A DNA stretch of 64,000 nucleotides, from NCBI RefSeq assembly GCF_022818495.1, contig NZ_CP089291.1:3737501-3801500 (forward strand), read 5' to 3'. A program made the position numbers and the translations under genes. This stretch comes from Fodinisporobacter ferrooxydans. Its GTDB lineage: Bacteria > Bacillota > Bacilli > Tumebacillales > MYW30-H2. Shown here in pieces: positions 46,591 to 51,300 of the stretch; within the stretch, counting starts at the first letter, position 1, and every line of letters begins with the position of its first letter. The notes below the pieces were generated by a model, which ran no database searches, was not told where the DNA came from, and worked only from the letters and a program-made list of their open reading frames with translations.

Positions 46591-46827
46591 CCGCCTTCCT
46601 CCTCTCTCCGCCTTCATTATGCTATGAAAGAGAGGGGGAATATGGCAATCAAAAAGAACAATTGCTCCAAGGATGACCTCAGAGCAAAACGAACGGCTAT
46701 CATTATAAAAGATGTTTTTGAACTCGATTTGGTTCGCTAATCTTGCAACTTCCATAGAGAAAGGTTACAGTATTCTCTAGCCAGTACTTATCTTATATCA
46801 GCGTTATAGGTTCGTCAAACTATATGG

Positions 46828-47208
46828 ATGGGAGAAACGAACGATAGAATGATAAAAACAAAACAAGACCCGCGAATCCACGAAGTATTCGTATTATACA
46901 TAGAAGAATCGGGAGATATTATATTCCGGGCGGAAGCTGTTGTTTTTTTCCTTGATCAGGTTCTGCCAAAAATTTATTGCCAAGACTCAAAATTTAACTT
47001 TATTCGCAATGTGACAAACCGCTTTTCAATCGAAGAACTGAAAAAAGGCGTAATATTCCGTGAACATCACATCGAACTCCGCCCATTGCCGACAGGAATC
47101 GATGTCGAGTTGCCCATGAAAATTTCCGAAATACCCAATCTCTTGGAACGCATGCACAAACAAAACACAAAGTTATTTTGGTTTTTGGAAAAATTCATGA
47201 TCCGTTAA
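46828..47208 (+). CDS. Hypothetical protein
   Basis: This protein of 119-126 residues has charged and hydrophobic stretches mixed (VFVLYIEESGDIIFRAEAVVFFLDQVLP, ELRPLPTGIDVELPMKI) and no membrane segment. I do not recognise it. The start is unsure: the ATG at 46828 has no ribosome-binding site, whereas GGGAG lies about 14 bases before the internal ATG at 46849. Its 3' end overlaps the end of the convergent NlpC/P60 gene by 14 bases. Confidence 0.55.
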   Translation: MGETNDRMIKTKQDPRIHEVFVLYIEESGDIIFRAEAVVFFLDQVLPKIYCQDSKFNFIRNVTNRFSIEELKKGVIFREHHIELRPLPTGIDVELPMKISEIPNLLERMHKQNTKLFWFLEKFMIR

Positions 47209-48136
47209 CGGTGTGCGTGCTCATTCTTCGTATCCCAAACAGCCGTTTTGCGTAATATGGATCGTCTAGCCGGGAAAGTACAACACCCGTATTGGCGTTT
47301 AGACTGTGAATAAATGTTCCTTGTCCGATATAGATCCCAACATGGCTGGCTCCGCTTGCATATGTCGTAAAAAAGACCAGGTCGCCCACTTCCAGGTCCC
47401 GCGCTTGTACGCTTCTGCCTATCTGATATTGTTCAAATGTCGTTCGTGGCAGTTGAATGCCGACACGCTGGAACACATATTGGGTAAAACCGGAACAATC
47501 AAAACCTGTACCTGGAGTTGTTCCGCCCCATTGGTACCTTGAACCTAACAGGCGTTGTGCGATGCCTTTGATCTGCAATTGGACGGCCGTTCCCTGCAAA
47601 TGTTTCTCATTGTCATTCCCAATGTACGATTGTGATTGTGATTGTGATTGTGATTGTGATTGTGATTGTGATTGTGATTGTGATTGTGATTGTGATTGTG
47701 ATTGTGATTGTGATTGTGATTGTGATTGTGATTCATTGCCCGCCGCAGATGACGGACTGGCAGATTCCGGTTGACCCAACTGTATTGCGGCAAGCATTCC
47801 TTCCGAGCGGGAACTTACATGTTTCTGCGGTTCGACAGAAGGCGCCGGGTTCTGTGGGTTCTGTTTCCATACAATCTTTTCAAGATTCGAACGGACGGCA
47901 AGATCATACGCATGTTCTTCCATCAGATTCATTCTTCGATTCGAATTTGATGTTGCATTCGATGATGGATTCCATTTTTGCAGCAATAGCTTTTTCATAG
48001 GGCGAACCAGCATCCGTTTATTCGGATCGCTTCCATGGATCGTCGTGCTGCCAAGACTCATTTGTGTCTGGGAGGTAGGAAGCGTTGCAAGGAATAGGCA
48101 GCATACGGTGACGGGCAGTCTTTTTTTCCTTTTCAT
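47195..48136 (-). CDS. NlpC/P60 cell-wall hydrolase with Ser-Gln repeat linker
   Basis: The 313-residue protein is exported: a basic N-terminus and hydrophobic stretch (MKRKKRLPVTVCCLFLATLP) look like a signal peptide. A linker contains about 18 alternating Ser-Gln pairs (around residues 136-170). The C-terminal NlpC/P60 domain shows TGFDCSGFTQYVFQ with the catalytic Cys, VGDLVFFTTYASGASHVGIYIG with the His, and HSLNANTGV. It probably cleaves the gamma-D-Glu-diamino acid bond of peptidoglycan. No SH3 or LysM domain is seen, so the polar repeat may act as a spacer. GGAG precedes the ATG. Confidence 0.88.
   Translation of the reverse strand: MKRKKRLPVTVCCLFLATLPTSQTQMSLGSTTIHGSDPNKRMLVRPMKKLLLQKWNPSSNATSNSNRRMNLMEEHAYDLAVRSNLEKIVWKQNPQNPAPSVEPQKHVSSRSEGMLAAIQLGQPESASPSSAAGNESQSQSQSQSQSQSQSQSQSQSQSQSQSQSQSQSQSYIGNDNEKHLQGTAVQLQIKGIAQRLLGSRYQWGGTTPGTGFDCSGFTQYVFQRVGIQLPRTTFEQYQIGRSVQARDLEVGDLVFFTTYASGASHVGIYIGQGTFIHSLNANTGVVLSRLDDPYYAKRLFGIRRMSTHTVNGS
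47628..47733. repeat. Hexanucleotide tandem repeat (GATTGT)n
   Basis: Nearly perfect units of GATTGT fill 106 bases, about 17.7 copies. On the minus strand they read ACAATC and encode alternating Ser and Gln in the NlpC/P60 gene. Because the unit is six bases, copy-number change would alter linker length without a frameshift. Confidence 0.97.
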
Positions 48137-48270
48137 ATTCCAACTCCATTCACAAGATGTTCCACTTGCATTCTATGCCGGGTTCTTGCAATTTAGAAGT
48201 TTTTTCAGCCAGTTCCCGCCTGCAGAAAATAACATATCTGTGCGGCGCTCGTTCAAAAATTCCGATTGTA

Positions 48271-48320
48271 AAAAAACAAGAAGACCGACTCCCATTGCCG
48301 GGAAATCGGCCTTCTTGTTT
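48271..48320 (-). terminator. Terminator after gltB
   Basis: The long imperfect stem AACAAGAAGGCCGA/TCGGTCTTCTTGTT on the minus strand is followed by TTTTTTT. It lies 34 bases past the gltB stop. Confidence 0.88.
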
Positions 48321-48353
48321 CTGCTGATTATTTTGTTGCATCTCTGCTGCCGA

Positions 48354-51300
48354 TCATTCTGTCGCAATGTCTTGATCTGTTTGCAGCATTCCTGGCTTGA
48401 TCATCATAAAGTGATGATCCGATTGTTCCATCAATGTTTGTACCATGTCTGCTTCTACTGTTTGCCCGCTTTTTACCAATTCGTTCTTGTACACGGTCAG
48501 AAGTTCCACTACATCCCGTTTCCCTTGAATATCCAGAGGCTGCAGCGTGACTTTGGCACCTTTTGCAATCCGCCTGCGCAATGCTTCTACATCAAGGCCC
48601 AGCTCGGGTTGAAGCCGCAAATACACGGTACCGCCCGTCATGCCGGAACAAATCCACGGACCTGGATCACCCAAGACGATTGCGCGGCCATTTGTCATAT
48701 ATTCAAATGCAAAACCTTTAATATTGGCGCGTGCTCCGATCATCCCAAACTGATCTTGCACCGGCGCCGCCAATTGTCCGCCGAAGATCATATCGGCGCC
48801 GGAAAGGCGTATCCCCGCACGGGAATCGGCATTTCCCTGAACGATAAAGAGGCCTCGTTGCGCGCCATATCCCAGTCCCTTGCCGACAGACCCATTTAGA
48901 CGCTGGCCATATTTATTTTTCCCTTTCAAAATGATCACTTTGCCGCCAAATGACGTTTTACCGACGCCATCTTGGGCGCCGCCTTCGACCCGTAAATGCA
49001 AGCCTGTTCCGTTATATGCCGCAAAACCGTTGCCGGCAATCGATCCTTTGTCAAATTTCACATTGGCTTTTTCGAAGGATGCAAACTGGCCTTGATATTT
49101 TGCGCGAACGATCGATCCGGATAAAAATGTGCCTAATACCCGATCATGGCTGGAAACATTGCTGACCTGGTGAGCGACCGATTCGCTGCCGGCAGCCACT
49201 TCCAACACTGCTTCCGCCGCCAATTTTTCTGTCAGCGAATCTTTCCCGACGCTGCTGATTCGTACAGATGGTATGACAAATCTGTCCGCCTGCCATTGCT
49301 GGTGTTGTTGCAGCATATCCGCCAAATCGATTCGATCGAATTCACGAGCTTGCTGCAGCAAATCCACACGTCCAACCAAATCCTGCAAACGATGCGCGCC
49401 GAGTTTTGCCGCCTGGGCTTTCAATTCCTCACCTAACGTATCGAAGAAATTCATGAGGTTCGAGACAGCAAGGTCGAATTCCCTTGGCACAAAGCTTTTC
49501 AAACCTTTTTCTTTGGCCTCATGCAGATCCATTTGCGTCGCGATTCCCACATGGCATGTGTCTTTGTGGCAGCCGCGACAACTGGTACAGCCGACTGCCA
49601 CCATTGCCATCGTACCAAAGCCTGCACGATTGGCTCCAAGCAAAATCATTTTCAGCACATCAATGCCTGTCTTCAATCCGCCGTCACACCAAATCTCGAC
49701 AGAATCCCGCAAACCTGCTTCAATCAATTCCCGATGTGCTGCTGCAACGCCGATTTCTACAGGCAAGCCCACATGTTTGAGCGCATGTGAACGCGCCGCG
49801 CCTGTTCCGCCATCATAACCGCTCAATGTGATGATATCCGCACCCGCTTTTGCGATACCCACTGCGATCGTTCCAATATTCGGCACAACAGGGACTTTCA
49901 CGGATACGCGTGCATTCGGATTGATTGTTTTCAGCTCGTCAATCATTTGCGCGAGATCTTCAATCGAATAAATATCGTGGTTATTCGATGGTGAGATCAG
50001 GTCGATTCCCGGCTGTGCATTCCGCGCTGCCGCCACTTTTACAGAAACTTTAGATCCTGGCAGGTGTCCGCCTTCTCCAGGTTTTGCACCTTGACCAATC
50101 TTGATTTCCAACAGATTGGAAGAATTGCACAGCTCTACATTGACGCCGAAACGTCCGGAAGCAATCTGATGTCCCCGATGATTCGGATATTTGCCGAGCA
50201 TATCTTTGATTTCCCCGCCTTCTCCGTTTAGGGAAATCATATTCAAACGGAATGCAGCTTCCGCATATGCCCGGAATGCCGTCTCACTTTGCGAACCAAA
50301 GGACATGGAGCTGATCAAAAACGGCAGTGAATGCATCCCGATCGTAAGATCAACATCTGCCGGATCGATTGGCGTTTCACTTTCCTTGATATCTAATGCA
50401 TGCCGCAGTGAAATAGGCGTTTGCTTTTCGAGCTCGATTAATTTTTCAAAAAACTCCTGATACGCAGATTCATTTCCATTTGCAATGTCGCCGGCCGCTT
50501 TCCAAACCCGCGGATAATAGCGGAAAGGACGCACCAGTTTTCCTTTTTCTGAACCACTGGCAATTTGATAGCGGTCCATGGCATCTTTGAGCAGCTCTTC
50601 AAATCCCATTCCTGCATGTTTGGAACCGTAAAAATTCGGCGCCCCCAGCATTCGGGCCAACTCTTCCCGCAAACCGATCGACGAGAACAAACGATCGTAT
50701 CCGCGCAACTCGTGAATTCCGATGGTGGAAATCACTTTTTCCAACCCTTTTTGATACGCGGAATACGCATTTTCTATCCCCTTGATATTCCCATCCTCAC
50801 TGACGATCTCCCAAAGCATGTATGGATTAACCGCATCTGCTCCAAGGCCGATTGCAATGACAATATCGTGTAAATTGCGGATGCCGGCAGAACGTAACAC
50901 GATGCTTACACGCCGGCGAAGATTCTCGGCATTTGCCGGCACAGCGTGATATTTTAACGCGAGATCCACAGCGGATACCACCAGATGGGGATCCAGCCAA
51001 TGCAGCCCGTCTGTAAATGCATGGCAATCATCGATTACGAGCAAATGGGAGCCGGCAACCACTGCTTCCACGGCTTCTTTTTGCAACCGTTCCAGCGCTT
51101 GTGGAATGGTTTCTTCTTCCGGACGGAATACGGAATACAACTCATAGACGGAATAAGGGCCTACCTGAAATTCATTTAACAAATCCTCAAACAGATAACT
51201 CCCGAGTTTGTGCGCAATCGAGCGGTATACATCCCCTTCGATGCCGGACCAGCCGCTATGCCCGCCAAGCAAGAGCGGCGTTTGCAATTCGACCCGACGC

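Follow-up and report, generated by a model that had tools for sequence, protein, structure and literature searches.

The locus described here, from Fodinisporobacter ferrooxydans, raises the question how a gene for a predicted cell wall hydrolase came to contain a long and perfect hexanucleotide repeat, and what the Ser-Gln tract encoded by this repeat does in the protein. The repeat lies in a stretch of 64,000 nucleotides, referred to as the window. In the available text of the genome report, strain MYW30-H2 of this species is described as an acidophile that came from a polymetallic mine heap and is a close relative of Tumebacillus and Effusibacillus, with a genome of 4.86 Mb in one contig, 44.2% G+C and 12 16S genes (PMC11123200). 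The genome analysed consists of one contig of 4,856,687 bp, with 44.2% G+C in the 459 kb sampled, and harbours 11 full 16S genes and one in pieces.

The array and the gene that carries it

A preliminary description of this DNA had noted 17.7 perfect GATTGT units at 47628-47733, and tandem repeat analysis (TRF) returned exactly these coordinates, with period 6, 17.7 copies and 100% matches. With this number of perfect units the array has the form of a VNTR, being a perfect multi-copy array of a short unit. Read on the minus strand, its codons are TCA CAA seventeen times followed by TCG, which gives 17 Ser-Gln pairs and a final Ser (residues 136-170). The alternation of Ser and Gln ahead of an NlpC/P60 domain was also described correctly: it is in frame in an ORF of 313 amino acids with PF00877 at residues 198-304 (Table 1). 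The same holds for the artificial frames ascribed to the repeat, all three of which are present as ORFs, namely Ile-Val (122 amino acids, 47632-48000, plus strand), Cys-Asp (105 amino acids, 47457-47774, plus strand) and Asn-His (82 amino acids, 47545-47793, minus strand). They are regarded as arising incidentally from the repeat; the third plus-strand frame, as read from the sequence, has TGA in each unit. At least five tandem units were found in none of 100 dinucleotide shuffles of the window, and the array is the only site with at least four tandem GATTGT units in the whole genome.

Table 1 Features of the hydrolase locus (positions in the window)
Feature	Position	Strand	Basis
Convergent 126-aa gene, marker of the conserved neighbourhood	46828..47208	+	No Pfam match; in 34/299 genomes
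NlpC/P60 hydrolase gene, 313 aa	47195..48136	-	ORF, Pfam, PDB similarity, 15 syntenic orthologues
NlpC/P60 domain, residues 198-304	47225..47545	-	Pfam, motif positions, PDB alignment
Hexanucleotide array (GATTGT on +, TCACAA in frame on -)	47628..47733	-	TRF, pattern search, codon listing
VSSRS, residues 107-111, start of the long spacer	47804..47818	-	Motif-to-Cys distances
Signal-peptide-like N-terminus	48074..48136	-	Translation, judged by eye
RBS-like GGAGTTG ahead of ATG	48141..48147	-	Read from sequence
Terminator-like hairpin between gltB and the hydrolase gene	48285..48310	both	Consensus scan, not evidence of function

NLPC_P60 is the sole Pfam match of the 313-amino-acid protein (E <= 0.001); it scores 111.8 bits against a curated cut-off of 23 and covers profile positions 1-105 of 105, while no LysM, SH3, anchor, wall-binding or other domain was found at this threshold. 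The PDB chains similar to the protein include MepS/Spr, LytE and CwlO. In the alignment to MepS, Cys214, His265 and His277 fall in the DCSGF, HVGIY and FIHS segments, and Cys-His-His is intact; such a triad is stated for Listeria p60 in the accessible part of its description (PMC3207947). By family the protein is a predicted D,L-endopeptidase acting as a peptidoglycan hydrolase. Judged by eye, its N-terminus has a Lys/Arg-rich start and about 13 hydrophobic residues, with no clear AxA cleavage site, and the protein is probably exported. Two further two-copy repeats were detected in the gene by TRF (a 12-mer x2.3 and a 9-mer x2.0), and no RNA family scored above threshold at 46700-48500.

The genomes with the 126-amino-acid gene include the present one, and in 15 of the 33 other carriers an NlpC/P60 gene adjoins this gene or lies near it. 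These 15 syntenic orthologues (L130, L132-L141, L144, L150, L159 and L161; in L150, L159 and L161 the 126-amino-acid gene was detected in the trace through 299 genomes, not in the neighbourhood comparison) resemble the window gene in neighbourhood, in domain, in having a variable spacer and in carrying an SR motif each. At least one further neighbour is common to the window and every one of these loci: a penicillin-binding protein in 7, a methyltransferase in 8 and gltB in 4. In the remaining 18 relatives that keep the 126-amino-acid gene no hydrolase match was found in the fetched neighbourhood, where some of the contigs end. This pattern suggests that the hydrolase has long belonged to the locus but can be dispensed with. 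The 126-amino-acid gene itself often has a penicillin-binding protein gene, a methyltransferase gene or gltB in its neighbourhood.

That the copy number is an artefact of assembly or sequencing, or that the gene is not expressed, is hardly credible. An array of 106 bp is far shorter than a PacBio read, which counts against an artefact, and an intact domain, an RBS-like sequence and conserved synteny are found at the locus. Some room for an error is left by the platform named for the genome, PacBio Sequel, with no mention of Illumina or Nanopore in the available part of the report; the coverage of 328.8x given there argues against it (PMC11123200).

Origin of the Ser-Gln tract

The codons of the pairs are uniform. 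All 17 Ser codons are TCA, which makes up 81 of 743 Ser codons (11%) in the background, and all 17 Gln codons are CAA (background 406 of 627, 65%), the background consisting of 28 other long ORFs of the window, some of which may not be genes, with the hydrolase gene left out. Under independent codon choice, a run of 34 codons this uniform would arise with a probability of about 3e-20. The rest of the hydrolase gene uses mixed codons (TCA for 5 of 26 Ser, CAA for 11 of 20 Gln). This uniformity indicates expansion at the level of DNA, for which replication slippage is the most likely mechanism. Slippage in steps of 6 bp preserves the reading frame. None of the 15 syntenic orthologues contains a perfect repeat of a short unit or a Ser-Gln tract in its spacer, and at a TRF score of at least 30 none has a comparable array, L150 having one two-copy repeat. 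As an account of origin, the in-frame expansion by two residues at a time that had been proposed earlier is thus borne out, both by the uniform codons and by the lack of the tract in 15 of 15 orthologues. Folding of the array as DNA, a check on hairpin-driven expansion, gave an MFE of 0 on both strands; the MFE of shuffles was also 0, and the folding thus lends such expansion no support.

It could be imagined that the DNA repeat is secondary to selection on the protein, with the Ser-Gln tract serving as a platform for modification (e.g. O-glycosylated Ser) or as a protease-resistant spacer. Msp1/p75 of Lactobacillus rhamnosus, an NlpC/P60 hydrolase, is indeed reported to be glycosylated on Ser in the accessible text (PMC3281093). 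However, the uniform codons point to expansion of the DNA repeat itself and the 15 orthologues do without a Ser-Gln tract, which makes this explanation very improbable.

The part of the protein in which the tract lies appears to be loosely constrained. From the SR motif to the catalytic Cys the orthologues have 36-60 residues, compared to 102 in the window gene. The latter comprise 35 residues of tract and 67 others, so with the tract removed the spacer is still 7-31 residues longer than those of the orthologues and the array accounts for only part of the lengthening. The orthologue spacers vary in sequence and are dissimilar to one another. The [AS]SR[SG] motif before the Cys is clean in 12 of the 15 orthologues and was relaxed for the other three (AARS in L136, SRG in L141, SRE in L150); VSSRS is judged to be its probable counterpart in the window protein. 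Motifs of the (L)[AS]SR[SG] type were also seen in some other NlpC/P60 proteins: of 42 frames read at 40 loci, 13 had a hit. A motif of the [AS]SR[SG] type might be a processing site.

Taken as a whole, a microsatellite grown by slippage and tolerated as a flexible Ser-Gln tether is a likely explanation. A conserved, often absent NlpC/P60 gene would have gained a hexanucleotide microsatellite in a loosely constrained spacer, in this lineage only among those examined. Slippage by whole 6-bp units would then have lengthened the tract with the frame intact, and ongoing gain and loss of units would keep it pure. The resulting Ser-Gln tract would form a flexible, uncharged tether from the N-terminal part to the catalytic domain, the length of which the protein would tolerate. 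Disorder of the tract and its present instability are predicted along with this, and length polymorphism between isolates is expected, one genome of the species having been examined. In the staphylococcal fbl gene, an array of 18-bp units was stable over 30 subcultures according to the available text (PMC6533592), so length alone does not imply frequent change.

Occurrence of the repeat in the same and other genomes

A comparable repeat was found neither in the 9 further NlpC/P60 loci that this genome contains nor in any of 29 loci of relatives chosen by similarity, some of which are the same genes as the orthologues. Perfect arrays were defined as at least 24 bp of units of 2-12 bp in at least three copies: 395 kb of sampled own sequence contained three others, with units of 10 or 11 bp and none hexameric, and 400 kb of the relatives' neighbourhoods contained one by the same 24-bp definition. 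In a collection of 84,980 species genomes, which may exclude the window's own genome, at least five tandem GATTGT units occur in 33 stretches (34 arrays). Only one locus, in a metagenome bin, exceeds the window array; its two arrays have 21.5 and 22.2 units and are separated by unread bases. None of the 33 loci gave an NlpC/P60 domain match (tblastn, E <= 1e-3) or showed a DCSG-type motif in a frame that spans the array. At 15 of them (three in part) the longest frames encode Asn-His, Ser-Gln or other pairs; the Asn-His cases include several His-rich proteins that look metal-handling, the Ser-Gln cases unrelated proteins. Furthermore, 97 stretches of the collection that matched a peptide pattern were considered as candidate relatives and rejected, none encoding one (tblastn).

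Other repeats were seen elsewhere in the same genome. The 10-mer TGTGAGGAAT is repeated perfectly eight times (L096:2242-2321, equal to G000:C1:4182242-4182321, minus strand) in the interval that separates a glycine riboswitch (RF00504, 68.1 bits, L096:2603-2706, minus strand) from the first codons of a gene resembling gcvT, named by eye; this array could change the length of the riboswitch leader in steps of 10 bases. The 11-mer AGGAAACGAAT is present in 4.2 perfect copies (L094:3513-3558, equal to G000:C1:3703513-3703558, minus strand) between dapB-like and mgsA-like genes, also named by eye; every copy carries a Shine-Dalgarno-like AGGAAA. At L093:5156-5184 of this genome, 2.9 copies of the 10-mer AGCAGGCAAG are followed by GCCTGCTTTTTTT, which could pair with AGCAGGCAAG as a terminator.

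Role of the linker and comparison with known systems

Most likely the tract is a tolerated flexible tether. The preliminary description had suggested that its length tunes the reach of the hydrolase at the cell surface. For reach to be tuned, one end of the tether must be anchored; no domain for anchoring or wall binding is found in the protein by Pfam, so this claim is left unsupported, and the orthologues have shorter, dissimilar and repeat-free spacers. If the N-terminal signal is cleaved, the length of the spacer cannot set the distance from the membrane, whereas retention of the signal as a membrane anchor would keep the idea alive. The shortness of the hydrophobic stretch favours cleavage; the lack of a clear cleavage site speaks against it. 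A fully stretched chain measures 0.36 nm per residue, or about 0.7 nm for one Ser-Gln unit.

A broader form of the idea is that the array is a contingency locus, where selection acts on linker length and a change of length adjusts access of the hydrolase to peptidoglycan or its release. The unit is in frame and inside a wall-hydrolase gene, as such a locus would have it, and the repeat number of staphylococcal ClfA is said, in the accessible text of a study citing others, to affect adherence and clumping (PMC6533592). Nevertheless this is considered unlikely, in view of the domain content just given, the lack of the repeat in all 15 syntenic orthologues, the 18 of 33 relatives without a hydrolase match near the neighbour gene (some contigs ending nearby) and the size of one unit, which is two residues only. 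For p60, moreover, a difference of two units was expected to have almost no influence on the domains, according to the part of the study available (PMC3917698).

The staphylococcal R-domains of ClfA and Fbl, of the Ser-Asp type, are likewise encoded by in-frame tandem repeats and give a surface protein a stalk that is flexible and polar; the number of repeats ranged from 9 to 52 among 240 isolates of S. lugdunensis in the accessible text (PMC6533592). Unlike the window array, they are built of 18-bp units of many sequences and belong to a wall-attached adhesin, not a hydrolase. Their stalk has a defined attachment, so that reach is meaningful there. Msp1/p75 of L. rhamnosus is a secreted member of the NlpC/P60 hydrolases whose sequence is repetitive (Ala-Ala-Ala-Ser-Gln); it differs in its repeat and in being Ser-glycosylated, and the available text describes no DNA microsatellite for it (PMC3281093). 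A literature search for NlpC with hexanucleotide returned no related work, most subscription papers being outside its coverage, and among results for NlpC, peptidoglycan hydrolase, tandem repeat, linker length and slipped-strand none combined four of these five.

The array looks like a new example of a type of repeat long known in p60 of Listeria monocytogenes, the product of iap, in which the hexanucleotide ACAAAT encodes Thr-Asn repeats. In six strains the copy number was 5 (EGDe), 7 (36-25-1), 3 (three strains) and 2 (one strain), as far as the available text goes (PMC3917698). The repeats stand directly before the NlpC/P60 domain in the accessible map of PMC3207947, which is followed here; PMC3917698 places them between the LysM and SH3 parts. 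Common to p60 and the window protein are an in-frame hexanucleotide array and an alternating polar dipeptide before NlpC/P60. The window array has another hexamer and encodes Ser-Gln in 17.7 units in one genome, compared to Thr-Asn in 2-7 copies across strains, and p60 has two LysM domains and one SH3 domain while the window protein has neither (Pfam, E <= 0.001). The protein may therefore be likened to p60 in its repeat region, yet would not be classed as a p60 on its Pfam domains. A convergent design, in which an acid-loving mine bacterium has a strain-variable, hexanucleotide-encoded tether whose repeat number adjusts release or activity, is quite unlikely; if true, adjustable tethers would be a recurring feature of wall hydrolases, also outside pathogens. 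Should the tract vary between cells, it would provide wall-hydrolase tethers of naturally graded length and might serve for typing in a species that has been little studied; should it not, it would be an ordinary neutral microsatellite. Together with p60 of Listeria, the window array hints that the spacer before the NlpC/P60 domain tolerates in-frame microsatellites.
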